From Aureibaculum luteum (GTDB lineage Bacteria > Bacteroidota > Bacteroidia > Flavobacteriales > Flavobacteriaceae), in NCBI RefSeq assembly GCF_003449015.1, contig NZ_QRGD01000006.1, forward strand, positions 186,001 through 250,000: DNA of 64,000 nucleotides, read 5' to 3'. This document shows, one piece after another, positions 7,978 to 51,742 of this stretch. The notes under the pieces are model-generated. The model did no database searches, was not told where the DNA came from, and saw nothing but the letters and a program-made list of their open reading frames with translations. A program made the position numbers and the translations under genes. How positions within the stretch are numbered: position 1 is the stretch's first letter; every line of letters starts with the position of its first letter.

Positions 7978-10134
7978 CTATTTTATGAGGAACCAAGTAT
8001 ATCCATTTGCTGGAATTTTCACACTTAAATCAACTTCATAATTTCGATTCAACTCGTATTTTTTACCTTTTTTCTTGTCTTTTTCGGATATGGTTGCAAA
8101 TTCCGTTATACCGGTATAATATAATGGTACTTTTATAACTTCGTCTATAGTATTTTCTGTAGGGTTAAATAACATAACAAAGCCTTTTTCAGAATTATTA
8201 GGATTGGCATGCATAAATCCATCCCAAGATCTTCCATCTGGCCTTCTTAAATGAATAATGTCTGAATTTAGAATTTCTCTATATTTTTTATAATGATCTA
8301 TTTGTTCAATAACCAGTTCTTTTGTTTTTTCTGTATCATATAAGCGTGGACCTCGATAACAAGCTTGTACACCTGAACCATAATTCTGAACCATATGTTT
8401 TTCATAATCGAGTAAATGTTTGCTTAATGGCTCTAAAGTAGCCTCTTCTCCCCCTCCATGATATTCAGTCAACGGGACAAATGTCCAGGCCATCGAAGGT
8501 GTTTTTTCCCAGGTACCATCGTAAATATTTTGTCGACCTAACATAATTTGCTGCTCTCTAGGTAAAGACCAATTTACTTCTCGATACCCAATACCACATT
8601 TATTTGAACCGTTTAAATAATAAAAATCTGGAGCATTTAAATAAATTCTTTTGTCCTTTAGCCAATGATAAAAATCAGTGGTCATTTTCCATTGTTCCCA
8701 CTGTGAATCTTCATAACCTTTATGATGTTTATGAGTTGTAGAAGCACAAAAATCACCAGGATATGGACCGTCATGTTCTAATAAATCAAATCCCGTTTTA
8801 TCTAAAAAATATTTCAATTTTTCAATATAACTTTCTCCCCATTCACTTGCCAAACATGGAGCATTTCCAAATTTAGCACCTCCTGGTTTTCCAGTTTCCT
8901 TATCAATTACATCAACAGCATCATTTATTTTCCTACTTGAAAAAAGTGAATACCCACCCAATTCAATACCTTTACCATGAGCGTAATCTGCTAGGTTTTT
9001 GAATTTTTGTATGTTTACAGCCGTGGTATCTTCCATATTCAACCCACTTCCAAAACTTAAAATAACCATTTCGTAACCGGTTTCCTTACATTGATCTATA
9101 GCAGAAACAACTTCTGTTGAATCTGTACTTGTTAAATGCATAAAAATTGGATTCTCAGTTGACCATGGAGCCAATAAACGATACATTTTTCGTTTACTTA
9201 ACGAATTCCGTTCTCTGTCCGTACCATCTAATAAAAGTTCGTAAGTATGGAAACTTTCAAAAGTTCCCTTTGGTTGTAAAAGTTTGTCCGGACCAACTTT
9301 TAATTTACTTTCAAGTAAACACGGCGTTTCCAAGTTCCAATTAACTTGCGAAGTATATTCGGGATCTTTTTCATAAAAAATAGTATGGTTGGCTGAACTT
9401 GCTGAAAATCCACCAAAAGCGTAATCACTTTCTACATGCATGTTCGGACGTAACCATTGCTCTGGTTTATCAACAGCATTTTCTGGTTCAGGAAAAGCCA
9501 ACATTTCGTTTTTAAATCCATCTACAGTAACCGCTTTATCACTATTATTCTCAATAGTAATCCATTTAGAAATTAATGGAGCCCCATTATAAATTTCGTA
9601 ATGTACAAATACTTTAATCTTTTTTAAATCAGGTGATTTATGTTTAAATTCCAATACAATTTCTCTTCCTGTAGCAAATCCTTTGGTAGCTAAATTAAAC
9701 TCCTTATTCTTACTCCATTTTATTTTTCTATCTATTGGATTATTGGTGTAATTTTTAAACTGAAAAGCAGAATCATCCGTTTCTAAGTCATCAATCCATT
9801 CATTTTTTAAATAACCGTGTTCTTTAAGTCCAGTTAATCCACCTACCGCATATACCTTACCATCAATTGTAACTTCTGCTTCTGGTTTAATGCTTCTTAA
9901 CATATTTTCGCCAGTAACATCATTCCGAAATTCAACCGTAGCTGCATTAGGACTCATCCTTATTTTTCTGGTTATAAGACCGTTAGTCAATACAATGTCT
10001 TTGCCTTTATTAAAAACTTGAGCTTCATAAACTGTATTATCAATTAGCCAATCATTGGCTTTTTCAGCTATGAATGTAAAACTTAGAATTAAGGTAATAC
10101 TGAGTAGAGCGACTATTTTTAGGAATGATTTCAT
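7978..10134 (-). CDS. clan GH-D-like glycoside hydrolase (alpha-galactosidase-like)
   Basis: A 718-residue secreted protein with an N-terminal signal peptide (about residues 1-24), a beta-sandwich N-domain (~30-310) and a TIM-barrel-like part (~320-600). The barrel has YEMVILSFGSG, GKGIELGGYSLFSS and FDLLEHDGPYPGD, in which Asp455 lies where clan GH-D enzymes (GH27/GH36) keep their nucleophile. A short C-terminal beta domain follows (FVMLFNPTENTIDE). I cannot assign a CAZy family; it may be a divergent GH36-type alpha-galactosidase. The next gene begins 2 bp after its stop, so the two are tightly coupled. In this locus it would fit removal of alpha-linked galactose from a galactofucan. Confidence 0.6.
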   Translation of the reverse strand: MKSFLKIVALLSITLILSFTFIAEKANDWLIDNTVYEAQVFNKGKDIVLTNGLITRKIRMSPNAATVEFRNDVTGENMLRSIKPEAEVTIDGKVYAVGGLTGLKEHGYLKNEWIDDLETDDSAFQFKNYTNNPIDRKIKWSKNKEFNLATKGFATGREIVLEFKHKSPDLKKIKVFVHYEIYNGAPLISKWITIENNSDKAVTVDGFKNEMLAFPEPENAVDKPEQWLRPNMHVESDYAFGGFSASSANHTIFYEKDPEYTSQVNWNLETPCLLESKLKVGPDKLLQPKGTFESFHTYELLLDGTDRERNSLSKRKMYRLLAPWSTENPIFMHLTSTDSTEVVSAIDQCKETGYEMVILSFGSGLNMEDTTAVNIQKFKNLADYAHGKGIELGGYSLFSSRKINDAVDVIDKETGKPGGAKFGNAPCLASEWGESYIEKLKYFLDKTGFDLLEHDGPYPGDFCASTTHKHHKGYEDSQWEQWKMTTDFYHWLKDKRIYLNAPDFYYLNGSNKCGIGYREVNWSLPREQQIMLGRQNIYDGTWEKTPSMAWTFVPLTEYHGGGEEATLEPLSKHLLDYEKHMVQNYGSGVQACYRGPRLYDTEKTKELVIEQIDHYKKYREILNSDIIHLRRPDGRSWDGFMHANPNNSEKGFVMLFNPTENTIDEVIKVPLYYTGITEFATISEKDKKKGKKYELNRNYEVDLSVKIPANGYTWFLIK

Positions 10135-34749: not shown

Positions 34750-35610
34750 TTAATTCGAATGAATCTTAACATATTGCGTAGGTGACATTTCTTTTATTTT
34801 TCTAAATTGTCTATTAAAATTGGAAATATTATTATAACCGCATTCATAGCAAATTGATGTTATGTTTTGTTTATTTTCTATTAACAATTTACAAGCAAAC
34901 CCTATTCGCAATTCATTTAAATAAGCAGTAAATGTTTTTCTATGCATACGCTTAAAGAATCTACTAAATGAAGAACTATTCATATTAACAGCGTTAGCAA
35001 CATCTATTGAAGTAATAGGTTGATTAAAGTTGTTAAAAATAAATTCGTATGCCTTATCTAAAGTTCTATTTTCAGTTTTATTGAAAGTTTTAATATAACC
35101 TGAACTAACTAAATTTTCAGATTTTGAATTAGATAACTTATGGAGTATCTTAATGAAATTTATAATGCGAATAAAAGGATCAAATGACTTTAGGCTTACA
35201 ATATCTTCAATAAGTTCTTTCTTTACGTCAAAAAATTTAATCCCCTGTCCTGAATGATGTATCATTTGGAGAATTCTTTTCATTTCAAACATATCTAAAA
35301 AAATTTCTCCTAAAAAATATTTATTAAAATGAATTGCAATCGCTTCTGAAGATAATTCAGAATCTTCGTTAAAATAAACCTCATCGTTCAGCCATATATG
35401 GGGTATGTCCTCCCCAATTAAAACAACATCATTTTCTTTAAAATTAATAATACCATCACCAATAAAAAGTGTACCTGTACTTTTTAATATTAAAACTAGT
35501 TCTAATTCTGGATGATGATGCCATACTTTTAAAAAAAATGGATACTCATCATGAGCTATTGTGAAGGAACTATCATTTGTACTCGTTCTGTTTAATCGAT
35601 GTAGTTTCAA
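34750..35610 (-). CDS. AraC-family transcriptional regulator (TTG start)
   Basis: A 286-residue regulator with an N-terminal cupin-like sensor (WHHHPELELVLILKSTGTLF, IGEDIPHIWLND) and a C-terminal pair of helix-turn-helix motifs (ITSIDVANAVNMNSSSFSRF, ITSICYECGYNNISNFNRQF) of the AraC/XylS type. It probably senses a sugar released from the glycan and controls the flanking GH20-led operon and the divergent GH2 gene. The start is TTG at 35608-35610: the codon before it in frame is TAA, the next Met is far inside, and KLHRLNR is the usual N-terminus of this group. A heptamer repeat lies 5 bp upstream. Confidence 0.88.
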   Translation of the reverse strand: MKLHRLNRTSTNDSSFTIAHDEYPFFLKVWHHHPELELVLILKSTGTLFIGDGIINFKENDVVLIGEDIPHIWLNDEVYFNEDSELSSEAIAIHFNKYFLGEIFLDMFEMKRILQMIHHSGQGIKFFDVKKELIEDIVSLKSFDPFIRIINFIKILHKLSNSKSENLVSSGYIKTFNKTENRTLDKAYEFIFNNFNQPITSIDVANAVNMNSSSFSRFFKRMHRKTFTAYLNELRIGFACKLLIENKQNITSICYECGYNNISNFNRQFRKIKEMSPTQYVKIHSN

Positions 35611-39334: not shown

Positions 39335-39643
39335 TTTGACACCGCTGGGAATATTGAATATAAGGTTTTATACCTTTTTAATAAAAATGGAAAAAAGATT
39401 GAAAGATTGATTTATAACTCAGGGACTTCAATATCCGAAAAACAGATATATAAGTACAACAAAAATGGAAATATAATTGAAGAAAGTGTTTATCAATCGG
39501 GTGGCATATTATTTCATAAAAAAACATATAAATATGATAACTATGGCAACATGACTGAATTTATATCAAGAATGCCAACTATTAAGAGTATTCCAACAAC
39601 ATTAGAATCACGGGAGTATTTTTCTATTAAACCAAAAAATTAG
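39335..39643 (+). pseudogene. remnant of a YD-repeat-like protein
   Basis: An open frame from just after a TAA at 39332-39334 to the stop at 39641-39643 encodes repeated units such as YLFNKNGKKIERLIYNSG, YKYNKNGNIIEESVYQSG and YKYDNYGNMTEF, the pattern of RHS/YD-type repeat proteins. The only in-frame initiation codon is a TTG at 39407, in the middle of a repeat unit, and no signal peptide precedes it. It is therefore probably the 3' end of a deleted gene. Its last 17 bp overlap the end of the convergent LytTR regulator gene. Between the GH2 stop and this remnant (39208-39334) I see no other feature. Confidence 0.5.
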
Positions 39644-40340
39644 CATCCAAATATTTTTGAAATTTTTCTTTATGCTGCTCACTAACAGGAATATAAATCT
39701 TATCAAAAACAATTCTATTACGCTCTATAGTCGTGATTTTTTTTAAATTAACAATAAAAGAACGATGTACCCTCATAAAATTATTCTTAGGTAGTTGCTC
39801 TTCAACCGATTTCATACTCAGAAGAGTCATCACTGGTTTATCATTGACCAAATGAATTCTAACATATTCTCGCATACCTTCAATATACTTTATGTCATCC
39901 AATTTAACTCTTACAATCTTGTATTCAGATTTTATAAATAAGAAATCATCATCACTTTTTAATTCTTCTTTTTCATTTTGTTGATTCCCAAACCATTCAT
40001 TTGCTTTATTAGAAGCTTTTAAAAAAGTAGCATAATCAATTGGTTTTAACAAATAATCTAATGCATCAACTTTAAAACCTTCCAGAGCATATTCACTGTA
40101 AGCTGTTGTAAAAATTACTTTCGGCGGACTGTTTAACGATTTTACAAAATCCATTCCGTTTAAATCCGGCATATTTATATCTACAAACATTAAATCAACG
40201 GCATTATCTTGTAAAAAAGAAATGGCCTCAAGAGGGCTTTCAAAACTGCCTTTTAGCTCTAAAAAAGGTGTTTTACAAATATAACTCGCAACTTGTTTTA
40301 ACGCCAATGGTTCATCGTCAATGTTTATGCAACTGATCAT
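39627..40340 (-). CDS. LytTR-family response regulator
   Basis: A 237-residue regulator with a receiver domain (IDDEPLALKQ; phospho-acceptor Asp54 in FVDINMPD; Thr in FTTAYSEYALEGF; Lys in YLLKPI) and a C-terminal LytTR DNA-binding domain (~135-237; YIEGMREYVRIHL, MRVHRSFIVNL). LytTR proteins bind pairs of short direct repeats spaced about two helical turns apart. Exactly such repeats (21-bp period) precede five transcription units further along (43.1-51.3 kb), so this protein is their probable activator. It is coupled to the kinase gene by a 4-bp overlap. Confidence 0.9.
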   Translation of the reverse strand: MISCINIDDEPLALKQVASYICKTPFLELKGSFESPLEAISFLQDNAVDLMFVDINMPDLNGMDFVKSLNSPPKVIFTTAYSEYALEGFKVDALDYLLKPIDYATFLKASNKANEWFGNQQNEKEELKSDDDFLFIKSEYKIVRVKLDDIKYIEGMREYVRIHLVNDKPVMTLLSMKSVEEQLPKNNFMRVHRSFIVNLKKITTIERNRIVFDKIYIPVSEQHKEKFQKYLDANFLV

Positions 40341-41484: not shown

Positions 41485-41529
41485 AATATCTTTGTTCATA
41501 CTCATAAATTGGGTACAAACAAAGATATT
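41485..41529 (-). terminator. terminator downstream of the CotH-like gene
   Basis: Inverted repeat AATATCTTTGT (41485-41495) and ACAAAGATATT (41519-41529), 11 bp perfect, with a 23-nt loop. On the minus strand it is followed by a T-rich run. It lies 10 bp after the CotH-like stop and before the kinase gene, so it probably ends the cotH transcript. Confidence 0.6.
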
Positions 41530-41539
41530 AAAACTAATC

Positions 41540-42967
41540 TTAATTCAAGTATTTTCCAACAGCCGTTGCACGACTTGAAGCATGCGATTTTAAAGTTGTA
41601 ATTGCTTGCTGAAAACTTCCACTACTATTTAAGAATGTATATCCAGAAACTTCAGTGGTTGCATAGGGCTCAACTATTGTTGCATATGTGTCATATATAT
41701 TTTGAATGTAAGATGTTGAAAAAGGCCCGTTTACAGTTTGTTGAACATAATTATCATAAATTGCCTTATATTCCTCATCTGCATATAAATATTCTATTAA
41801 AGGCCAATCGTTATTTGATAGACTAGAGAAATTCAAATTTAAAGAACCTCCTTGTTTTCCTTCTTGTAAAGCTTCGTTATTATCCCAAGGAATCCACGTC
41901 AATAGATTATTATCAGGATTATTGTATAGATAGTAATTATGTTCCATTCTACCATAGGTGTCCCAATTTTGTATTACCGTATTTACGGCTAAATAATGTA
42001 AAAACACATCAGTATCCAATACTGCATCTAAACCTAATCTCCAAGAGGCCGGATCTGTTGTTCGTGTTGTTGCGTGCAAAGCTGTAAACACAGATTGAAT
42101 ATCAGACCAATCAGCTTCATCTTCATTAGTTTTTTTCTCAAAACCATCCTCATTAATTGTACCTTCTGCAAAACTAGCTCCATAATCTTCTGGTTTGTAA
42201 AGATTACCGTCGTCACTAGAGAATTGAGTATCAATTACGGTATCATCAATCTCTTCTACCAGTGTATATAATCCGAAATATTCAGGACCATCTCCATGAT
42301 CTACATAAAGAGTATAAAAAGCTGTATTAGAAACTGCTAACCCCGCCTCCTTAAAAATATCTGCAGCAACTTTTTCTCTTAAAAATGAGCTATCGTCATA
42401 ATTATTTTTTAAACTGAATTTTTTGAATCCATAAAATCGTTGATTGTCTATTTGAGGATAATCATCTTCATACTCATCAAAATCCATTTTAAATGCCAAT
42501 TTTAAAATACCAGATTGCCAAGCAGTCTGTAAACTTGAATTACCTTTAAAACGTAGTCCTACTTTGTACCATTCTTTGCCATTATAGAAAACTTCTCCGG
42601 GTACAAATATTGGGTCTTCGTCAACATCACTTAACCCTCCAGGACCACTACTATTTTGACCAAAAGTTCCATAAAGACTTGTCATATCTACTAGCATGGC
42701 TTCCCAATTACTTTCAGAAATTACAAAATCAAATCTTTTTACTGTAGTATTATCAAATACCTCATCAAAATCTGCATCTGCACTTTTACTATGTGTTGCG
42801 TCTGTCCAATCTGTGGGGTCAAAATCTGGATCATCTAAAGTTACCCCTACTTGTGTTGCTACTTCTGTTTCCGTAACTGAATCGTCATCAGAGCAACTTA
42901 CAAATAAGAAAGTGGCTATAAACAAAACATTAACTAGGAGTGGAATTCTTAAATTTACTTTTTTCAT
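41540..42967 (-). CDS. CotH-like kinase-fold lipoprotein
   Basis: About 475 residues with a lipoprotein signal (IATFLFVSC) from the ATG at 42967; the frame also opens at 43009. The CotH domain shows GLRFKGNSSL, FYGFKKFSLKNNYDDSSFLREKVAADIFKEAG split over several strands, FGLYTLVEEID and LLTWIPWDNNEAL. CotH proteins of spores are atypical secreted protein kinases; the role of surface CotH lipoproteins in Bacteroidota is not established. It is the last of five units with the shared 21-bp direct-repeat promoter. Its leader is about 100 bp longer than the others because of an inserted hairpin element. Confidence 0.85.
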   Translation of the reverse strand: MKKVNLRIPLLVNVLFIATFLFVSCSDDDSVTETEVATQVGVTLDDPDFDPTDWTDATHSKSADADFDEVFDNTTVKRFDFVISESNWEAMLVDMTSLYGTFGQNSSGPGGLSDVDEDPIFVPGEVFYNGKEWYKVGLRFKGNSSLQTAWQSGILKLAFKMDFDEYEDDYPQIDNQRFYGFKKFSLKNNYDDSSFLREKVAADIFKEAGLAVSNTAFYTLYVDHGDGPEYFGLYTLVEEIDDTVIDTQFSSDDGNLYKPEDYGASFAEGTINEDGFEKKTNEDEADWSDIQSVFTALHATTRTTDPASWRLGLDAVLDTDVFLHYLAVNTVIQNWDTYGRMEHNYYLYNNPDNNLLTWIPWDNNEALQEGKQGGSLNLNFSSLSNNDWPLIEYLYADEEYKAIYDNYVQQTVNGPFSTSYIQNIYDTYATIVEPYATTEVSGYTFLNSSGSFQQAITTLKSHASSRATAVGKYLN

Positions 42968-42994
42968 GTGTCTTATATTTATTATTTTTAAATG

Positions 42995-43045
42995 GTCATC
43001 CCGAAGCATCGGGACAGTTCGCTATTGATCATTCCCTTGGGTGAC
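42995..43045. repeat. small inverted-repeat element (MITE/REP-like) in the cotH leader
   Basis: Starts with GTCATCCC (42995-43002) and ends with the near-complement GGGTGAC (43039-43045). An internal perfect hairpin TCCCGA-AGCA-TCGGGA occupies 42999-43014. Its GC-rich character contrasts with the surroundings. The distance between the -7 element and the start codon is 146 bp here versus 46-47 bp at the three DUF1566/DUF4353 promoters, which fits an insertion of about 100 bp including this element. Confidence 0.55.
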
Positions 43046-43112
43046 AACGCTCTGAACATGCTCATTTCATAATTAATTATTCTTTATGATGTTATTGATT
43101 AAATTAATACTG

Positions 43113-43177
43113 CAAAACACCGAATTTTGTGTCATGAAATAAAAAGAAATCAATGAAATGGATGATTTTATCTACGA
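43113..43177 (-). promoter_or_regulatory. LytTR-type promoter, copy D (cotH)
   Basis: Direct repeat on the plus strand: ATCAATGA at 43149-43156 and ATCTACGA at 43170-43177 (21-bp period). After exactly 28 bp comes CAAAACAC (43113-43120), whose complement GTGTTTTG resembles the Bacteroidota -7 box. The same geometry occurs at copies A, B, C and E. Confidence 0.65.
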
Positions 43178-43187
43178 AATGGAAAAA

Positions 43188-43231
43188 ATCCCCATGTTTA
43201 TAAATTTCATAAAACTTTTAAACATGGGGAT
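43188..43231 (-). terminator. strong hairpin terminator after the DUF1566/128-aa operon
   Basis: Perfect 13-bp arms, ATCCCCATGTTTA at 43188-43200 and TAAACATGGGGAT at 43219-43231, with an 18-nt loop. On the minus strand the second arm runs directly into a T6 run. It lies 20 bp after the stop of the small periplasmic protein gene. Confidence 0.85.
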
Positions 43232-43251
43232 AAACTAACCTAACTCAAATA

Positions 43252-43638
43252 TTATCTCATTTTCCTTTTTGGAGATTGATTTTTTTTCAAATAATTTATA
43301 TAAAGTTTTTCCTGATCTTCAGTTAATGCTTCTTTGACTTTAGCTTCAAAATCTGATTTTAAGGATTCCATTTCTTCCCTTTTAGGTCTTCCAGATTTTG
43401 TTTTCTCTTTAACTTCTGTGAAATGATCTTTATAAAGCTGCAAGACAGTCGCTTCTTGTAAATCTGACAAATCAATATCTGTAGCTAAATCACTGACCAT
43501 AGTTACTATTTCTTTGTCTGAAGGAAGTTTTGGAGGGCCCTCTTGACCTCTATCACCTCCTGGTTGAGCATAAACTCCAACTGAAATCAGTGCTATCCCT
43601 AAAATCAATATTGTCTTTGTTATTTTTTGAATTTTCAT
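43252..43638 (-). CDS. small periplasmic protein, Spy/LTXXQ-like
   Basis: A 128-residue protein with a cleavable signal peptide (ending SVGVYAQ), a Gly/Pro-rich mature start (PGGDRGQEGPPK) and a charged helical body with LSDLQEATVLQLYKDHF and LTEDQEKLYINYLKK. The paired helices and LTxxQ-type words recall Spy/CpxP-like periplasmic chaperones or metal sensors, but similarity is weak. It follows the first DUF1566 gene by 17 bp under the same LytTR-type promoter. Confidence 0.7.
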   Translation of the reverse strand: MKIQKITKTILILGIALISVGVYAQPGGDRGQEGPPKLPSDKEIVTMVSDLATDIDLSDLQEATVLQLYKDHFTEVKEKTKSGRPKREEMESLKSDFEAKVKEALTEDQEKLYINYLKKNQSPKRKMR

Positions 43639-43655
43639 GTGTTTATATTTATTGA

Positions 43656-44861
43656 TTAATTTATATCTCTTACTAATCTTACATTATTATAATAACGTTC
43701 AGCATCCTCTCCTGCTGGCCCGTCTTCATCCTTGGTGTCAAATCTTACCGCACCTGCTCCGTGAAAATCTTCACCTTCGCCATTTACAGCTCTACCAAAA
43801 GCAACATACCAGGCATAATAGTAAGGTTCGCCACTCGTAAATGGAGCAGAAGTACCTGTCCAATAATAACCATAATCATCATCATACCCCGCTTCTTGAA
43901 CATCGCTGGACAATTGTGTACAAGAAAATAGAGGGTCAATTGCAGGCCCCACCTTTGAAGCGTCAGTTGCTGTTGGGGAATAGGAATAATCAACAATTCC
44001 TTGCAATTCTTTTACATTTGGCAATCGCCAATTTGAATAACCTGCTAATTCTGAACTTTCAGCATATATTAAAGCATCTTCCCAGTCTAAGGTAATTCCA
44101 TCATCATCTTGTGCCCACATTAAACCAGTGTTAGCATCACTTATTGTACCATCTCCATTATCGGTAAATACATTAGTTCCATAATCGCCACCACGTACAG
44201 CTCTAACATATTTACCACCAACAGGACCGCTTGCTGTCGCTGAATATGCCTTTATATGCCCTGTAACATGGTTTACACCAAAGGCTGCATTACTACCGCC
44301 TTCAACAGTTACACCTACATAATAGTTGTTGGCCCAAAATTGTTCATCTTTGGTTACCTCACCACTTGCCAAATTAAAATAATCAGTATCTAAATATGGC
44401 CATCCTGAACTAAAATCACTAATCGAAAAGAGTTCTTTTAAAGTAGGCATCCGCCAATCATTATAACCGGAAAGCTCTAGATCATCACAATAGTCTATTG
44501 CTTCTTGCCAAGTATAATCATCTGATGAAGGAACTTGTTGCCACATTAACCCCGTGTTGTTGTCAGTTATTGTTCCATCTCCATTATCGGCATAATCCAT
44601 TGAAGCTCCCTTTAAATAATTAGCATCTTGTCCGTAAAATTCTTCACCAGAACTTATGTTACTCACCACTGCCCCGTCATTATCATATAAAGTAACTTGT
44701 CCCGTTGCAATCTGTAGATAGTCGTTTATTGTTAGTTCTGTATCAGTATCGGTTTCTGAAATTGTGTCATAATCATCATCGCAACTTGTTATTGTTAAGA
44801 ATAACATCGCTACAAAAAATAAGCTAAATAGTTTTGTTGTTTTTACATCTGTTGTTTTCAT
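43656..44861 (-). CDS. DUF1566 lipoprotein 1
   Basis: About 401 residues with a lipoprotein signal ([12 protein letters not shown], lipobox Cys27) and an acidic linker. It contains two DUF1566/Lcl-C-type modules, each opening with a YxDNGDGTIxDxxTGLMW phrase and including W-rich WRMPTLKEL or WRLPNVKEL words. DUF1566 domains adopt a C-type-lectin-like fold and occur on surface proteins, so a binding role is likely. The ATG at 44861 was chosen because the signal peptide starts there. It is paralogous to the next gene, with nearly identical signal peptide and promoter DNA. Confidence 0.85.
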
Positions 44862-44906
44862 GTTTGGTATTTTTAGAATGGTTTTATGTATTACTATTTG
44901 ATGGTG

Positions 44907-44971
44907 CAAAGAAAGGATAGCTATTGTTCATTCAAAAAAGCAATCAATGTTTGGGACTTTTTCATCTACCA
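44907..44971 (-). promoter_or_regulatory. LytTR-type promoter, copy A (DUF1566-1)
   Basis: ATCAATGT at 44943-44950 and ATCTACCA at 44964-44971 (21-bp period, plus strand). After 28 bp comes CAAAGAAA at 44907-44914, giving TTTCTTTG on the transcribed strand as the -7-like box. A TTG on the minus strand lies 18 bp upstream of it, near the usual -33 position. Confidence 0.7.
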
Positions 44972-45055
44972 ATTGGGCATAAACACCAAGGAACATGATT
45001 GATAATTTTAGGTTAAAAATGAAGAAATTGAATTCTTTAGATGTGTTATATAATT

Positions 45056-45088
45056 AAAGGATCAACCTAAAAAATAGACCGACCCTTT
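45056..45088 (-). terminator. terminator hairpin A
   Basis: On the minus-strand RNA AAAGGGUCG pairs with UGAUCCUUU across a short loop, with G:U pairs where the plus strand would mismatch, followed by a U-rich stretch. It lies about 105 bp after the stop of the second DUF1566 gene. Confidence 0.6.
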
Positions 45089-45193
45089 CTAACTAACTCA
45101 AATTAACTATGAAAAATAATTCTTTACAAAATGCCTTAAATAAACAACTTTTGAAAGGTTGTTTTCAATGGTATTTTTTATTGTTTTTAAGAC

Positions 45194-46480
45194 TTAATTT
45201 ATATCTCTTACTAATCTTACATAATTGTATATTCTTACCGCATCTCCTTGTGGGCCATGTCCCTCTTCAAATTCACTTGGGTCTCCATCTTTAGGGTCAC
45301 TTCGTTGGGCTCCTGCACCATGAACATCTGTCCATGTATCAGTCCCCATATTACCCATACAGCGTCCAAAAGCTATGTATACTCCCCATCCACCTTGCAT
45401 ATCTGCAGACTCGGCTTCGTGGGTTGTACTACTCCAATACCAAGGATAATCATCTTCACCAGCTTCATTCTGAATTACCGTGCTATCAAAGACATCATCA
45501 ATAGTTGCAGAATTAGATGTTGCTGGAGATTTTGTATAATCTACAATTCCTTGTAATTCTTTTGCATCGGGTAAACGCCAATTCGTATATCCATCATATT
45601 CAAAGTTCTCCGCATAACTTAATGCATCTTGCCAAACCATGCTAGTTCCGCTGTCATCTTGCATCCACATTAGACCTGTTGCTGTATCAGAAATTGTACC
45701 ATCACCATTATCAGTATATTCGTTTACGCCATAAGTTTCACGTCCGCGTACCAATAAGTAATTAAACATTTTGTCCCCACCATTAAAACCAGTTCCATAG
45801 CCTTTTATTCGACCATCAGCAAGATTAACTCCAAAAACGGTTTCACTAACCTCATCACTTACATAAACTGCTGTAGTAGCACATTGCACATCAATTAAGC
45901 GTTCCATAGCACTTGTATCACCATAAGCAAAGTCGAAGTAATTGGTATTAATAAAAGGAATTAAACCTGAAGTATCGTCTCCTTGAACAGAACTTATATC
46001 GCGACCGCTAAACATCATAAGAGAATACATCTCTTTAATTGTAGGAACACGCCAATCGCTATAGCCCCCTGTAGAAGTAGTGTTTACAACGGCAAGTATG
46101 TCAGCGTATGATAATTTGTCATCAGCATCAATACTACCGTCACCATTGTGGTCAAAAGACTGTTCCCACATTAACCCTGTAACCATATCAGTCACTGTAC
46201 CATCTCCATTATCTTCATAATTTGGTGTTTCACCCGGATAATTTGCATTCTGACCATAAAAATCATCACCTACAGATTGAGTTGTAGTTTCTGTTGTATT
46301 ATTAAAGAATTTTGTTTGGTTGGTTCCAACAATAGGGAAACCAGAAATATTAGGTAAATTTTCTTCGGTTGTTTCATCTGTAATTTTATCATCATCATCG
46401 CAACTTGTTATTGTTAAGAATAACATCGCTACAAAAAATAAGCTAAATAGTTTTGTTGTTTTTACATCTGTTGTTTTCAT
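45194..46480 (-). CDS. DUF1566 lipoprotein 2
   Basis: About 428 residues. The first ~30 residues are essentially identical to DUF1566 lipoprotein 1, after which the proteins diverge. It has two DUF1566 modules: YEDNGDGTVTDMVTGLMWEQ with an intervening DHNGDGSIDADDK, a dockerin/EF-hand-like acidic loop that could bind Ca2+, and [19 protein letters not shown]-rich WRVPTIKEM and WRLPDAKEL words follow each module start. It is probably a surface-exposed lectin-like binding protein. It has its own copy of the LytTR-type promoter and is followed by a terminator hairpin, so it appears monocistronic. Confidence 0.85.
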   Translation of the reverse strand: MKTTDVKTTKLFSLFFVAMLFLTITSCDDDDKITDETTEENLPNISGFPIVGTNQTKFFNNTTETTTQSVGDDFYGQNANYPGETPNYEDNGDGTVTDMVTGLMWEQSFDHNGDGSIDADDKLSYADILAVVNTTSTGGYSDWRVPTIKEMYSLMMFSGRDISSVQGDDTSGLIPFINTNYFDFAYGDTSAMERLIDVQCATTAVYVSDEVSETVFGVNLADGRIKGYGTGFNGGDKMFNYLLVRGRETYGVNEYTDNGDGTISDTATGLMWMQDDSGTSMVWQDALSYAENFEYDGYTNWRLPDAKELQGIVDYTKSPATSNSATIDDVFDSTVIQNEAGEDDYPWYWSSTTHEAESADMQGGWGVYIAFGRCMGNMGTDTWTDVHGAGAQRSDPKDGDPSEFEEGHGPQGDAVRIYNYVRLVRDIN

Positions 46481-46525
46481 GTTTGGTATTTTTAGAATGG
46501 TTTTATGTATTACTATTTGATGGTG

Positions 46526-46590
46526 CAAAGAAAGGATAGCTATTGTTCATTCAAAAAAGCAATCAATGTTTGGGACTTTTTCATCTACCA
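46526..46590 (-). promoter_or_regulatory. LytTR-type promoter, copy B (DUF1566-2)
   Basis: ATCAATGT at 46562-46569 and ATCTACCA at 46583-46590, then 28 bp to CAAAGAAA at 46526-46533 (TTTCTTTG on the minus strand). It is identical in geometry to copy A because the region is duplicated. Confidence 0.7.
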
Positions 46591-46674
46591 ATTGGGTATA
46601 AATACCAAGGAACATGATTGATAATTTTAGGTTAAAAATGAAGAAATTGAATTCTTTAGTTGTGTTATATAATA

Positions 46675-46707
46675 AAAGGATCGACCTAAAAAATAGACCG
46701 ACCCTTT
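46675..46707 (-). terminator. terminator hairpin B
   Basis: AAAGGATCG (46675-46683) and CGACCCTTT (46699-46707) form a stem that is complete on the minus-strand RNA through one G:U pair, followed by a U-rich run. It ends the DUF4353 gene transcript, whose stop is about 80 bp upstream. Confidence 0.6.
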
Positions 46708-46784
46708 CTAACTAACTCAAATGAAAATTTTTATTTTCCTAATAGGAAGAACCATACTACTTCATTATGGTTTCAGTAAAGTGA

Positions 46785-48374
46785 TTAATTACCTCCAGGC
46801 CCTCCAGGTCCTCCACCTTCTCCAGGCTCTCCTGTTGGCCCTAGTTCTCCACCAATTTGTGTTACTGTGCTATTTATAATAAATGAATCACTTGAATTTG
46901 TTCCTCCGCTATAAGTTCCAGAAGTGTATAAACCGTTAATTTCTGTACCATTGCTTACAGTTCCTCCTGTGTAAATGTTATAGGTTTCGCCTGTTTCTAA
47001 TTTCGCATTGGAATAAATAATTGTTTTAACACTAAATGGTACTTGATAAGTAAGAGCTTCTGTTCCATCTTCTGATTGAATATTTAATATGGTATTTGCA
47101 CTAACTCCATCTAAAATTACTGTGTTTTGCGTGCTTTCACTTTCTGTTGGAAAGGATGTATTTAATCCCAACCCTAAAATGGTTCCTCCAGTTATTTTAA
47201 ATATATTATCATCACAATCAAAACTACCATCGGGCTCATCGGTACGAACTGCTATGGCAATGGTTGTACCACCTGTAACGGTAATTCCTCCGTTACTATC
47301 AATGGCATCATTAAGCGTGGCGTAAACATAAATATTTCCTCCATTAATATATATGTTGTCACCCGCATTAAGACCGTCATCGTATGAATTGATGCTAATT
47401 GTACCGTCATTTATGGTCATTATTCCTTTAGATTCTATACCTTCACCTTCAGAAGTCTTTATCACAAAATCACCTCCATTTATAGTTACATTAGGTGTAA
47501 TAGTATCATCTGGCTCATCCTCATCGTCAATGTCATATGATGCTGCAATGCCATCATCTACGGCATTGATATTGAATGTTCCATTGTTGATTATTATATA
47601 CCCTTCATTACAATCCATACCGTCGCTATCTGCTGTTAAATTAAGCATACCGCCATCTACAATGATGTAATCGTTAGTATGGATACCATCAGAAGCCGCT
47701 TGAGATACCGTAATTGTTCCACTAATTACCCTAATATAATCATCACTTGCAATACCATGCTTGTAATTTCCTACCACATTTAGAGCTCCTGATCCGCTAA
47801 AAACCAATTGCCCTTCGCTAAAAAAGGCTGCTTTTGCGTCTTCATCATCAGGAATATTGCTATAACTGGTTGCATCAGTTAAATTGTTTGTACCTTCTAA
47901 TTCAACAAAAATTGTTTTTTTTGATTGGATATTAATGGCCGGACCATCGGTATTGGTAATACTTAAATCATTTAATGATAATTTGAATTTTTTATCACTA
48001 TAAACTTTTAACATACCATCGGTTGTTATACCTGATATTTCATAAGCCACTTTTGAGATAGATGAATTAATGGTCACATCAGCTCCATCCTGTGTAATTA
48101 CCACATCATCAGGAACGGGGTTTGTGATGGTTGCTGATGTATTTGAAAATACAATTTGAACTGTATTTTCAAAAGTAGCATTTTCTACTAAATCATCTTC
48201 ATCGGCACCTGTGTTATTGATATCTCCTTCAGCCGTGCCAGATTTATTTGTATTTGCTATTAGTATATCTTCTGATGTTGATACAATATCATCTTCATCT
48301 TCATCACAACTTGTTATTGCTAAAAATAACACAGTTACGAAAATTAAGCTTAATAATTTTGTTGTCGTTTTCAT
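46785..48374 (-). CDS. carbohydrate-binding DUF4353 beta-helix lipoprotein
   Basis: A 529-residue lipoprotein (lipobox Cys23, FLAITSC) with an acidic linker and a long right-handed beta-helix of repeats such as ISGTITVSQAASDGIHTNDYI, LTADSDGMDCNEGYI, INAVDDGIAASYDI and ISINSYDDGLNAGDNIYING. The alternating DGI/DGL turns match DUF4353 (Cthe_2159-like) proteins, which bind acidic polysaccharide with Ca2+ at such turns. The C-terminus is a low-complexity Gly/Pro/Glu tail. The signal peptide and promoter are homologous to those of the two DUF1566 genes although the mature proteins are unrelated. Confidence 0.85.
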   Translation of the reverse strand: MKTTTKLLSLIFVTVLFLAITSCDEDEDDIVSTSEDILIANTNKSGTAEGDINNTGADEDDLVENATFENTVQIVFSNTSATITNPVPDDVVITQDGADVTINSSISKVAYEISGITTDGMLKVYSDKKFKLSLNDLSITNTDGPAINIQSKKTIFVELEGTNNLTDATSYSNIPDDEDAKAAFFSEGQLVFSGSGALNVVGNYKHGIASDDYIRVISGTITVSQAASDGIHTNDYIIVDGGMLNLTADSDGMDCNEGYIIINNGTFNINAVDDGIAASYDIDDEDEPDDTITPNVTINGGDFVIKTSEGEGIESKGIMTINDGTISINSYDDGLNAGDNIYINGGNIYVYATLNDAIDSNGGITVTGGTTIAIAVRTDEPDGSFDCDDNIFKITGGTILGLGLNTSFPTESESTQNTVILDGVSANTILNIQSEDGTEALTYQVPFSVKTIIYSNAKLETGETYNIYTGGTVSNGTEINGLYTSGTYSGGTNSSDSFIINSTVTQIGGELGPTGEPGEGGGPGGPGGN

Positions 48375-48420
48375 GTCTTTATTTTCTTAGTATTATATTA
48401 TTTATTACTAATTAATGGCA

Positions 48421-48485
48421 CAAAGAAAGTATAGCGAATGTTCACTGAAAAAAGCAATCATTGTTTAGGACTTTTTCATCTACCA
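48421..48485 (-). promoter_or_regulatory. LytTR-type promoter, copy C (DUF4353)
   Basis: ATCATTGT at 48457-48464 and ATCTACCA at 48478-48485 (21-bp period), then 28 bp to CAAAGAAA at 48421-48428. The flanking sequence has diverged noticeably from copies A and B, but these three words and their spacing are kept. Confidence 0.7.
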
Positions 48486-48569
48486 ATTGGGCATAAACAT
48501 CAACGAACTTTAGTAATAAGATTGGGTTAAAAATATAGAAATTGAACTCTTTAGAAGTATTATAAATTA

Positions 48570-48602
48570 AAAGGATCGACCTAAAAAATAGACCGATCCT
48601 TT
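48570..48602 (-). terminator. terminator hairpin C
   Basis: AAAGGATCG (48570-48578) and CGATCCTTT (48594-48602) pair perfectly and are followed on the minus strand by an AT-rich run. It lies 46 bp after the flavoprotein stop and ends the ferredoxin-cytochrome-flavoprotein operon. Confidence 0.65.
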
Positions 48603-48647
48603 CTAACTAACTCAAATGAATATGAAAAAAACTTATTTGTAAATATC

Positions 48648-50387
48648 TTAAGCAGACCAACTGTTAAAAGGTTGTTTTTCAAATTGCATGGTTCCATCAT
48701 CCCCTTTAAATATATTGATCCAGGCCTCCCAATTTTCAGGATCCATTTCAGGATAATCCAAACGATAATGACTACATCTACTTTCTTTTCGCATTAAGGA
48801 TGCCTTTAGTTTCATTTCTGCACTTACAATCATATTAGCAGTTTCATGAGCTAATCTCAGTTCGTGCATATTTGCAGCTCTAAGCATGGGCATATGGTGA
48901 TCTCTTAACTCTTCTACATAAGCTAAGGCCGCCTTTAACATATTCTCTTTCTTAATGTACAATACAAAGTTAGGTATTACAATACCTTGCAACGTTTGTG
49001 TTACCCAAGCGGGACTATAACCAGCTTCTCTTTTTAAAGGAGCTAAAATTTCCTCCTGTATTTCCTCAATTTTTGATGTTGAAATATGTGAAATTTCAAC
49101 GTTCTTACAATAGTTGGCCGCTGCTTCTCCTGCAACGCCGCCCTGAACTGCAGATCCTGACAATGATGAACCAATCTGCGTATAGATACCCCCGGACATA
49201 TAAGAACCTAAGGCATCACCTGCGGCGTATAGCCCAGGAATATTTGATTCGCATTGATCATTAATAGGCACCAAGCCTTCAGATTTATGTATAGCCATGC
49301 CGGCTGAAGATCCTCCCACAATACTTCCTCCCATTCCAGGAGGTGCTCCATCTCCATGACCTCCTTTTGGCGGTTTTCTATCTCCATTATCAGGTGGTTT
49401 TGAATTTTGACGACTAAATTCTTCAGGGACAAAAGGTCCACCACTAACTTCAGTCTTTTCTCCAGACCCCGGAGGTCCCATTTTTAGAGGACTTCCATTT
49501 GTATAAGCAACATAATTCATATCAACTCCTAAATCATGGTGCACTTCTATACCTGTGGTGCCGGGTTTTTGTTCGAACATGTCTCCCCAACCATCATAAC
49601 AAGCAGCTGCATTTTTAGCTTTTCCAGGATGCCCATCATTCCATTCTTTACCAGTAACTTTGGCACCAATATTATAAGCCATTACAGTACCATCATGCGT
49701 AAGATCACAGATTGGGAAACCATTGGGTTTAAAACCACCCGACCCAGTACATAAAATGATACTTTTAGCTTCATAAATAATGACTTTTTCTTTATCTATA
49801 CTAAAACCTGCTGCTCCAACAAGTTTATTATTTTCTTTAACTAAATGTGTTATGGTAACACGCTCTTGAATTGGAATATTACGTTCTTCAATAGGTTTGC
49901 TAAAACTTTTATTATATAGCGTAGAATCGAAAAACCCCCATTCTTTGAGTTCGTTTACCCTAGCCAATGAATGTTCTGCCATTTGCCTTGTATAAACAGG
50001 ATTGTTAGTGCCTAAAGCTGAACGCGAAACTGCTGCAACAAATTCATCAATGCTCAATGTTTCTTTGGCCGGGTCATAAGCAAAAATCCCTTTTGCAAAA
50101 GGGGTTAGACCAGATGAGCCTAGTCTTCCTTTTGAAACCATCAACACTTTGGCCCCAGCATCATGTGCTTTAACTGCAGCGAACAATCCTGCCATACCAC
50201 TTCCTATCACCAGAACTTCTGTTTTGAACGTATCAAGACCTAAAGCATCTATATCTACTTTTGGATTATTTGTTTCCCAATCTAGATGTAATCCTAAGGA
50301 GGCTACAGCGGCGGCACCAGCAGCACCTCCTGCCAATGCTATAAAACTTCGACGTGATATACTATTCTTTCTTTTTGATTCAGTCAT
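48648..50387 (-). CDS. Tat-exported FAD-dependent oxidoreductase (fumarate/APS reductase-like flavoprotein)
   Basis: A 579-residue flavoprotein with a twin-arginine signal (SRRSFIAL, Arg12-Arg13, then an Ala/Gly-rich stretch). The FAD-binding Rossmann motif is VLVIGSGMAGLFAAVKAHDAG (about residues 58-78, seen in two parts), with IILCTGSGGFKPN and GLYAAGDALGSYMSGG completing the fold. The helical C-terminus (RCSHYRLDYPEMDPENWEAW) resembles FrdA/AprA-type subunits. Residues ~301-360 are an unusual Gly/Pro/Lys-rich insertion. It begins within the last 8 bp of the cytochrome gene. It probably receives electrons from that membrane protein and reduces (or oxidises) an unknown periplasmic substrate. 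Confidence 0.85.
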   Translation of the reverse strand: MTESKRKNSISRRSFIALAGGAAGAAAVASLGLHLDWETNNPKVDIDALGLDTFKTEVLVIGSGMAGLFAAVKAHDAGAKVLMVSKGRLGSSGLTPFAKGIFAYDPAKETLSIDEFVAAVSRSALGTNNPVYTRQMAEHSLARVNELKEWGFFDSTLYNKSFSKPIEERNIPIQERVTITHLVKENNKLVGAAGFSIDKEKVIIYEAKSIILCTGSGGFKPNGFPICDLTHDGTVMAYNIGAKVTGKEWNDGHPGKAKNAAACYDGWGDMFEQKPGTTGIEVHHDLGVDMNYVAYTNGSPLKMGPPGSGEKTEVSGGPFVPEEFSRQNSKPPDNGDRKPPKGGHGDGAPPGMGGSIVGGSSAGMAIHKSEGLVPINDQCESNIPGLYAAGDALGSYMSGGIYTQIGSSLSGSAVQGGVAGEAAANYCKNVEISHISTSKIEEIQEEILAPLKREAGYSPAWVTQTLQGIVIPNFVLYIKKENMLKAALAYVEELRDHHMPMLRAANMHELRLAHETANMIVSAEMKLKASLMRKESRCSHYRLDYPEMDPENWEAWINIFKGDDGTMQFEKQPFNSWSA

Positions 50388-51036
50388 TTTTTATCACTTT
50401 TTTGGTAGATTTAAAAAGGTAGATTCTCAATAGATAAAATATTCCGCTTGCAACAACAATTAAATAATAAATTGAAAATGAAGTACTATTATAACGTCCT
50501 ATGTTGATAACATGTGACGTTGCAGTTATAATAAAAAGCATGGCCAAATAACCGTGAACTTTTCTCCAAGTTCTATATTGTAAATGCAGTTTAAACCTAA
50601 AGAAGGAGGTTATTAAAATAATAAGCATAATCATATAGGCAACCATGCCCAAAACAATGCCCAAACTATTAAAACTAGTAAGCAAAATTGTAAATGCTTC
50701 AAACGGCGTTTTAGTGTTGTCAAAAAATTTCGGAAGAATTATAAAAAAAGGATGTGCCATAATAATGATAATAAACACATAACCTATGAATTTGTGTATT
50801 TTAAGTACACTAGACATTTTTATTTGTTTTACCAGAATTTTATTTGTTCTTGTTAAAAAGAATTGTCCCAATAACAGACTAAAGGTTAAAATGATGATTA
50901 GCGATAACAATTCCTTAAATACCGACCGTTTAGGAAATTCACCTAAAGCCCAAAGCAATAAAGGTACACCGACAAATACCAAGATAAGTGGTAATAATTT
51001 GTATATTTTACTTTCCTTATTCATAATTAACCCCAT
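50380..51036 (-). CDS. ferric-reductase-like haem b membrane protein
   Basis: A 218-residue membrane protein with about six helices. Two histidine pairs with equal 14-residue spacing, His81/His95 (KIHKFIGYVF, AHPFF) and His161/His175 (KVHGYLAML, TSHVI), match the bis-haem ligand pattern of the ferric reductase-like transmembrane family (also MsrQ/YedZ). It should carry electrons across the membrane between the cytoplasmic ferredoxin-like protein and the Tat-exported flavoprotein encoded on either side. It may start at 51036 (10-bp overlap with the ferredoxin gene) or at the ATG at 51024. Confidence 0.8.
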   Translation of the reverse strand: MGLIMNKESKIYKLLPLILVFVGVPLLLWALGEFPKRSVFKELLSLIIILTFSLLLGQFFLTRTNKILVKQIKMSSVLKIHKFIGYVFIIIIMAHPFFIILPKFFDNTKTPFEAFTILLTSFNSLGIVLGMVAYMIMLIILITSFFRFKLHLQYRTWRKVHGYLAMLFIITATSHVINIGRYNSTSFSIYYLIVVASGIFYLLRIYLFKSTKKVIKND

Positions 51037-51242
51037 GATACAATTACTGGTATTGATTTTTCAGGCGAAATAGTGATAGCGTCAACTGGACAATACATAC
51101 GGCATAAATGACAAATCTGGCAATCTTCCGGATATAAAATCTCCGCTTTTTTTGTGTCTCGATTCAGTCTAATAACATCGGTAGGGCAGCTTTTTATGCA
51201 TTCTTCACATCCTATACAACCGTTAATACTTACTATAGACAT
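51027..51242 (-). CDS. 2[4Fe-4S] ferredoxin
   Basis: A 71-residue ferredoxin with two CxxCxxCxxxC motifs: Cys9, 12, 15 and 19 (CIGCEECIKSCP) and Cys41, 44, 47 and 51 (CQICHLCRMYCP), both followed by the usual proline. It has no signal peptide, so it is cytoplasmic. It resembles the N-terminal core of AprB-like subunits. It is the first gene of a tight three-gene operon and probably feeds low-potential electrons to the haem b membrane protein. It has the LytTR-type promoter copy E. Confidence 0.9.
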   Translation of the reverse strand: MSIVSINGCIGCEECIKSCPTDVIRLNRDTKKAEILYPEDCQICHLCRMYCPVDAITISPEKSIPVIVSWG

Positions 51243-51266
51243 TTCTCTTCCTTTTGATTTACACTA

Positions 51267-51331
51267 TAAAGAAAAGACCTCTAAATTTCATTTAAAAGTA
51301 AAATCAATGATGGGGGCTATTTTATCTATGA
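51267..51331 (-). promoter_or_regulatory. LytTR-type promoter, copy E (ferredoxin operon)
   Basis: ATCAATGA at 51303-51310 and ATCTATGA at 51324-51331 (21-bp period), then exactly 28 bp to TAAAGAAA at 51267-51274 (TTTCTTTA on the minus strand). The surroundings are not otherwise similar to copies A-C, so the motif is not merely part of the duplication. Confidence 0.65.
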
Positions 51332-51742
51332 ATTGTAAGATTTTTTAAATAAGCAATTTGCTTTTAAAGCATTAGAAAATGTTCCCTTTTAAAATAACAG
51401 AGACACAATAAAAACAATCACGGGATTCTTGAAATAAATTCTGGCGTGTTTTTAATAGGTCGTTATATCCATTCTATATTCTTTCTTGAGCAACTATTAG
51501 TGCAGTCATTTATTTTAAATACTCATATTTAAATTCAGAAAAAGAAATAAATATGATTATTTATTGAAGTTATTTATAATATAAACAGTTTTAAAACAGG
51601 CTATTTATTAAAGAAGTATTCAAAATTCAAGTTTTAATACCACAATTAAAGCTCAATAATACATAAATAATACATTTTTTAAATAAAAAAAACTTAAGTA
51701 TTTGATAAACATATTGTTGAGGCTTAATATAGTGGGCAAGGA

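Follow-up and report, generated by a model that had tools for sequence, protein, structure and literature searches.

How are the genes for a group of acidic lipoproteins and a neighbouring electron-transfer module controlled in Aureibaculum luteum, a member of the Flavobacteriaceae? The question arises from a 64,000-nt stretch of DNA (contig NZ_QRGD01000006.1, positions 186,001 to 250,000; hereafter the window), part of a 5.10-Mb genome in 48 contigs, in which five promoters carry a similar direct repeat and a response regulator with a LytTR DNA-binding domain is encoded nearby. An earlier reading of the sequence (the original prediction) proposed a five-operon LytTR regulon. The analysis reported here supports that proposal, with amendments: in all likelihood, the five sites are operators of the regulator encoded at 39627-40340, which would activate five operons, probably including its own through cotH.

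Five promoters with a common direct repeat

On the minus strand of all five promoters, two 9-bp half-sites are separated by a 12-bp spacer, giving a direct repeat with a 21-bp period (plus-strand positions 43149, 44943, 46562, 48457 and 51303; Table 1). The promoters precede cotH, two Lcl_C/DUF1566 lipoprotein genes (LclA and LclB), a Cthe_2159 (DUF4353) gene and a ferredoxin operon, and every site is intergenic in a simple ATG-open reading frame (ORF) call. The strict pattern ATCAATGW-N13-ATCTAYSA matches the window four times and is absent from 100 dinucleotide shuffles, confirming that the promoters share the repeat. Published LytTR sites consist of two repeats, each 9-11 nt long and 11-13 nt apart (PMC4847170), and the 9-12-9 arrangement, found in all five window sites and in the aligned sites of five other genomes, agrees with this description.

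The proximal half-site lies 28 bp from the start of a -7-type octamer (of the TTTCTTTG type) in all five promoters. The original prediction had given these 28 bp as the distance to the CAAA/TTTG word, which is itself 32 bp away. It had also placed a TTTG-type box in every promoter; the TTTG core does follow the repeat at 32 bp (+32) in four of the five, whereas the ferredoxin promoter has TTTA. The -7 consensus given for F. psychrophilum is TAnnTTTG (PMC9723704). Between repeat and octamer, a T-rich stretch is found at +6 to +8; most sites are without a clear TTG.

Genome-wide, the relaxed pattern ATCAWTGW-N13-ATCTA has 11 matches, against one for a reversed control, and the reported promoters account for five of them. 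Four of the other six lie inside ORFs and two are intergenic. In this search, which the original prediction had called for, all five promoter sites are intergenic and four have TTTG at +32; none of the other six has TTTG there. Two composite patterns were also tried and set aside. TWGAT-N16-TWGAT-N32-TTTG gave seven matches in the genome (two in the control), three of which were window promoters and four in ORFs. Across 397 genomes of the family, GTWGAT-N15-GTWGAT-N32-TTTG, which the window's own sites do not fit, was found 12 times and its reversed control 13 times; this composite is therefore not selective at this scale.

Could the shared sequence simply reflect promoter duplication, with no regulatory meaning? 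The LclA, LclB and Cthe_2159 promoters are clear duplicates (240/249, 208/248 and 207/248 identical aligned bases), as had been recognized. The flanks of the cotH and ferredoxin sites had been called unrelated; each aligns to the duplicated three somewhat better than do 50 mononucleotide shuffles, and the two promoters do not align with each other above 50 such shuffles. Because of these weak alignments, the cotH and ferredoxin promoters may share a remote common origin with the other three. Duplication as the whole explanation is nevertheless extremely unlikely, as half-sites, period and TTTG at +32 are all retained in the five other genomes, where spacer and flanks differ. Beside the duplicated modules, near 45057, 46676 and 48572 of the window, near-identical hairpin-like GGATCG...CGATCC stretches followed by TTT were seen by eye, which are perhaps repeated terminators.

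Conservation of the sites with one regulator

The regulator was searched in the 397 genomes, with at most about seven candidates scored per genome. A protein 73-76% identical to it was found in three of them (G011, G296 and G414), the next matches being about 55% identical. In addition, two Maribacter genomes bearing the gene cluster (G434, locus L053, and G435, locus L055) encode 71-72% orthologues directly after kinase and flavoprotein genes. The half-site core, the 21-bp period and the distance to TTTG are kept in all five (with one base more in G414), so that the comparison of orthologous upstream regions suggested by the original prediction reveals the same architecture. Sites precede orthologues of window genes in four of the five, and of the six genomes all but one have the regulator orthologue next to genes of the cluster. 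In G296, sites are found before an EF-hand/Lcl pair, a ferredoxin gene and cotH followed by the kinase and regulator genes; in G011, before an EF-hand gene, an Lcl-like frame (identified by eye, at the end of locus L229) and cotH. In G434, they precede a lectin-like gene (Lectin_C below cut-off) and the p128, VTC and ferredoxin genes, and in G435 the VTC, cotH and ferredoxin genes as well as p128, from which a short ORF separates the site. The only site found in G414 precedes the kinase-regulator pair.

When 20 sites from the six genomes are aligned, TTTG stands exactly at +32 in 17, or in 16 of 19 if the G011 Lcl site, which came via a TTTG filter, is left aside. The alignment omits matches at L053 (2276, 9433, 9454 and 16657) and L055 (13716, 13737, 16445 and 19488), some of which are overlapping registers of tandem half-sites and some possible further sites, as well as low-scoring matches at L103, L104 and L055.

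A matrix built from the window sites only was then applied to the surroundings of the regulator orthologue in the five other genomes, 200.5 kb in all (somewhat less unique DNA, as L055 and L228 overlap). The comparison sets, 1.49 Mb in total, comprised 20 unselected loci (398 kb), 40 other LytTR loci (484 kb), 18 LytTR loci of the window's own genome (356 kb) and 12 Cthe_2159 loci for which no regulator orthologue is known (251 kb). The five genomes had earlier been inspected with a hand-made pattern, hence the test is window-trained and not blind. At score 12 with no promoter condition, the five genomes gave 19 matches, with TTTG at +32 in nine, at +33 in one and in neither position in nine. 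The comparison sets gave 70 (18 unselected, 29 other LytTR, 13 own LytTR, 10 Cthe_2159), none of which had TTTG at +32; three, all in the unselected, other-LytTR and own-LytTR sets, had it at 31 or 33. With TTTG required at 31-33, there were 10 matches in the five genomes against two, none, one and none in the comparison sets; dinucleotide shuffling of the regions from the five genomes, repeated ten times, gave one in total.

These counts bear on which protein uses the sites. The genome contains 23 LytTR genes, one of them a 53% identical paralogue near another Lcl_C gene (L118), so that a different paralogue, or several, might be the main user. This is unlikely: promoter-placed sites track the 71-76% orthologue, while around other LytTR genes they number none in the 40 held-out loci and one weak match in the 18 own loci at score 12, and the paralogue's own locus carries 21-bp repeats of another sequence. 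An AraC-family activator, such as the HTH_18 protein encoded at 34750-35610 of the window, would suit the geometry, since AraC proteins can also recognize direct repeats with a period of about 21 bp adjoining -35. However, some 7.5 kb and a 1100-aa ORF separate its gene from the nearest site. Nine site-bearing loci yielded only two partial relatives of this protein, at about 29-30% identity, but the genomes of all nine are known to encode a kinase-LytTR pair. The half-site also fits the LytTR consensus, and binding by an AraC protein is very improbable.

Several observations weigh against a regulon of the LytTR regulator as proposed. At score 9 with TTTG at 31-33, the five genomes give 16 matches and the comparison sets 3, 4, 4 and 0 (ten shuffles give one), and at least three of the 16 (L103:15343, L230:465 and L227:12693) look incidental by position, not lying before cluster genes. 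The +32 TTTG has its exceptions in the window ferredoxin promoter, in G414 (one base further) and in the G434 ferredoxin promoter (TTCG). The -33 element is represented by the T-rich stretch only and the -7 octamers are imperfect, and a consensus-like candidate promoter that lacks the repeat stands before the kinase-regulator genes. In 60 kb of G414, no relative of CotH, Lcl, Cthe_2159 or ferredoxin was found, a YHYH gene being present. Likewise, before the operon running from VTC to Cthe_2159 at three Bacteroides loci, no 21-bp repeat above thresholds was seen. With 23 LytTR genes in the genome, another regulator could share the sites.

The regulator, its kinase and the proposed regulon

The end of the kinase gene overlaps the start of the regulator gene by 4 bp. 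The original prediction had described the two as a LytTR/LytS pair, of which the first half holds (Pfam). The kinase matches only Pfam His_kinase (PF06580) and has no 5TM-5TMR_LYT domain at E up to 0.001, whereas the kinase of LytS/LytTR two-component systems carries this input domain (PMC5552118); hence it is not LytS proper. A LytTR Regulatory System (LRS) was also set aside, as the regulator has a receiver domain and a kinase partner. Among NCBIfam models, the regulator matches BtsR best, scoring 123.4 bits against a cut-off of 246.

Between cotH and the kinase gene, an inverted repeat overlaps a consensus-like -7 box (TATCTTTG) and is followed by a T-rich run, with no LytTR repeat seen in it; it may be a terminator, a promoter or both. 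Because TATCTTTG is preceded by TTG-N18 in this inverted repeat, the kinase and regulator genes may have an additional basal promoter. A similar hairpin with TATCTTTG is found upstream of position 8644 in L104, and a similar inverted repeat in G296. Both in the window and at L104, which belong to two genomes, the inverted repeat that separates cotH from the kinase gene has the form AATATCTTTG.../...CAAAGATATT.

The following course of events would account for the sites. The neighbouring kinase would phosphorylate the regulator, two protomers of which would occupy both half-sites, two helical turns apart on one face of the DNA. With its end 28 bp ahead of the -7 octamer, the proximal half-site would adjoin the -33 region, as expected of a class II activator, and the proximal protomer could touch RNA polymerase near -33, an element perhaps represented by the conserved T bases at +6 to +8. 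Activation, rather than repression, is the predicted effect of binding. Five units would be switched on, namely cotH, LclA-p128, LclB, Cthe_2159 and ferredoxin-ferric reductase-flavoprotein, their limits being judged from gene spacing only. The kinase and regulator genes probably belong to the regulon via cotH, and read-through from it would amount to autoregulation, which amends this part of the original prediction.

The predicted output is a set of surface-displayed acidic proteins together with a membrane electron-transfer module. CotH, both Lcl_C proteins and the Cthe_2159 protein are acidic lipoproteins in which the cysteine is followed by SDDDS or by runs of D/E. These stretches resemble known surface lipoprotein export signals, given as SDDDD in Bacteroides fragilis and SDDFE in F. 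johnsoniae (PMC5080379), and the four proteins are probably surface-exposed. By eye, the N-terminus of the flavoprotein looks like a Tat signal. The orthologue of p128 in Maribacter (L053:3815-4207) is 50% identical to it and reaches 21.1 bits for LTXXQ, below the cut-off of 24.3.

Table 1. Genes, repeats and promoter elements of the proposed regulon, in window coordinates.
Feature	Position	Strand	Remarks
Response regulator, receiver and LytTR DNA-binding domain, 237 aa; proposed activator	39627..40340	-	Pfam LytTR 7.8e-22, Response_reg 3.6e-18
Sensor kinase, His_kinase family, 369 aa	40337..41446	-	Pfam His_kinase 4.9e-24
Inverted repeat between cotH and kinase gene	41485..41529	-	AATATCTTTGT/ACAAAGATATT; holds TATCTTTG box preceded by TTG-N18
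CotH-kinase-family lipoprotein	41540..42967	-	Pfam CotH 1e-71; lipobox region; mature part starts acidic CSDDDS
cotH promoter, -7-type octamer	43113..43120	-	GTGTTTTG
cotH direct repeat (probably also kinase-regulator genes)	43149..43178	-	TTCGTAGAT-N12-TTCATTGAT
LTXXQ-like protein, 128 aa (p128)	43252..43638	-	17 bp downstream of LclA, same direction; no Pfam match
Lcl_C/DUF1566 lipoprotein A (LclA)	43656..44861	-	Pfam Lcl_C 3.1e-44
LclA, -7-type octamer	44907..44914	-	TTTCTTTG
LclA direct repeat	44943..44972	-	TTGGTAGAT-N12-AACATTGAT
Lcl_C/DUF1566 lipoprotein B (LclB)	45194..46480	-	Pfam Lcl_C 5.6e-38
LclB, -7-type octamer	46526..46533	-	TTTCTTTG
LclB direct repeat	46562..46591	-	TTGGTAGAT-N12-AACATTGAT, identical to LclA site
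Cthe_2159 (DUF4353) carbohydrate-binding-family lipoprotein	46785..48374	-	Pfam 1.2e-66
Cthe_2159, -7-type octamer	48421..48428	-	TTTCTTTG
Cthe_2159 direct repeat	48457..48486	-	TTGGTAGAT-N12-AACAATGAT
Cthe_2159 third half-site	48499..48507	-	TTCGTTGAT; further 21 bp upstream, in 21-bp phase
FAD-binding, fumarate-reductase-like flavoprotein	48648..50387	-	Pfam FAD_binding_2 1.9e-17
Ferric-reductase-like transmembrane protein	50380..51036	-	Pfam Ferric_reduct 1.2e-13
Ferredoxin-like protein, 71 aa	51027..51242	-	NCBIfam ferredoxin-type matches, best 25 of 54 all below cut-off
Ferredoxin operon, -7-type octamer	51267..51274	-	TTTCTTTA
Ferredoxin-operon direct repeat	51303..51332	-	TTCATAGAT-N12-ATCATTGAT

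Diverged relatives and known systems

The 12 scanned Cthe_2159 loci (loci and not whole genomes) contain no site of the window type with TTTG at 31-33. Apart from L040, L044, L045 and L046, these loci, eight in number, lie in genomes checked for the regulator. Seven genomes with a close Cthe_2159 orthologue have a best regulator match of 54-55% (G027, G030, G372, G425, G436, G437 and G438), and G440 one of 46%. Sites of another type accompany more distant regulators. In G382, a 55% identical regulator is encoded beside two Lcl genes, and the kinase gene and both Lcl genes carry TTCATTGAT-N12-TCTATTGAT. In a Bacteroidaceae metagenome-assembled genome (L050), a perfect TTCGCTGAA-N12-TTCGCTGAA precedes Cthe_2159, kinase and regulator genes. 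All four diverged sites (three in G382, one in L050) have TTTG at +32. Loop residues of the LytTR domain are reported to set specificity (PMC4847170), and in an alignment the regulators of the diverged sites differ in parts of this domain. The three site types thus hint, suggestively only, that diverged regulators pair with diverged half-sites in the same geometry. At L050, a gene divergent from Cthe_2159 (8219-9595) shares the perfect 21-bp repeat, which for this gene is read on the opposite strand and is followed by a separate TTTG after 31 bp.

A survey of non-redundant intergenic DNA counted pairs of 9-mers with at least 8/9 matches at distance 21, relative to the mean of the other distances from 12 to 40. 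There were 24 against 4.9 (standard deviation 2.3) in the 40 held-out LytTR loci, 14 against 4.4 in the 18 own LytTR loci and 12 against 3.9 (rank 2 of 29) in 15 other LytTR loci. The six orthologue loci gave 4 against 1.1 (rank 4), and 29 against 13.0 (rank 1) at 7/9 matches; the Cthe_2159 loci without the regulator gave 4 against 2.8 (rank 8). The 20 unselected loci (L195-L214) also showed a mild enrichment, 12 against 4.6 (standard deviation 2.2, rank 1). That 21-bp repeats are a general mark of LytTR loci is therefore partly supported, by a clear excess there and a smaller one in unselected loci. Near kinase-LytTR pairs at L173, L174, L184, L185, L189 and L192, divergent gene pairs (about 440 aa and 290-330 aa) have 21-bp repeats between them; the half-sites of these repeats differ, those of L189 and L192 being alike.

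At the three Bacteroides loci, Cthe_2159 comes after genes of the VTC, DUF4956 and DUF2490 types (by Pfam at L051, by look at the other two), and in two of them it is followed in turn by kinase and regulator genes. The 8/9 repeat pairs before the Cthe_2159 gene at L048 fall in the preceding ORF. At L056 (7469-9007), the VTC- and DUF4956-type parts seemingly form one 512-aa open frame, these being two genes at L048 and L051. In the Maribacter genome G434, VTC, DUF4956, DUF2490, Cthe_2159 and CotH genes stand in a row within the regulon, an association suggestive of a role at the surface or in a matrix. CotH, polyphosphate polymerase and DUF4956 genes are described beside some Gram-positive Pel clusters (PMC7112168), similar to the CotH, VTC and DUF4956 genes grouped in the G434 regulon. 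No VTC or DUF4956 protein was found among the window proteins tested (Pfam).

The system has partial counterparts elsewhere. YpdA/YpdB and BtsS/BtsR of E. coli have a similar receiver-LytTR regulator, and YpdB is described as binding a direct repeat of a 10-bp motif (PMC4847170); the half-site and the targets differ here, several target operons are proposed and no 5TM-5TMR_LYT was found in the kinase. In S. mutans, 9-bp repeats mostly 12 bp apart lie 4-11 bp before -35 (PMC6193735). The HdrRM and BrsRM systems of this species (LRS) are thus alike in repeat and spacer and may be alike in the position just upstream of -35, and positive autoregulation is described for them (PMC6193735), but their LytTR regulator is partnered by a membrane inhibitor protein, in contrast to the kinase and receiver-LytTR regulator of the window. 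The same source gives 11-bp repeats 11 bp apart for Bacteroides LRS-like operons. The LytTR domain of the regulator aligns with AgrA chains of S. aureus at E ~0.01, a weak similarity, and the half-site differs. The open-licence literature searched yielded no LytTR operator or multi-operon LytTR regulon in flavobacteria. Hence the repeat architecture is known, while the regulon itself was not seen in that literature.

An exact, conserved predicted operator and a named partner regulator make this a directly testable regulon. Through it, a sensor would be linked with several surface proteins that are poorly understood (CotH, Lcl_C and Cthe_2159, in relatives also VTC/DUF4956 and EF-hand proteins), which may help to reveal their roles. 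It is possible, though we hold it doubtful, that the 9-12-9 geometry with 28 bp to the -7 octamer is a common promoter code of Bacteroidota receiver-LytTR regulators, each with its own half-site; here the code would serve a sense-and-display system whose surface matrix is based on CotH/Cthe_2159 and, in relatives, on VTC as well. If such a code were real, the regulons of many Bacteroidota LytTR pairs would be predictable from sequence alone.

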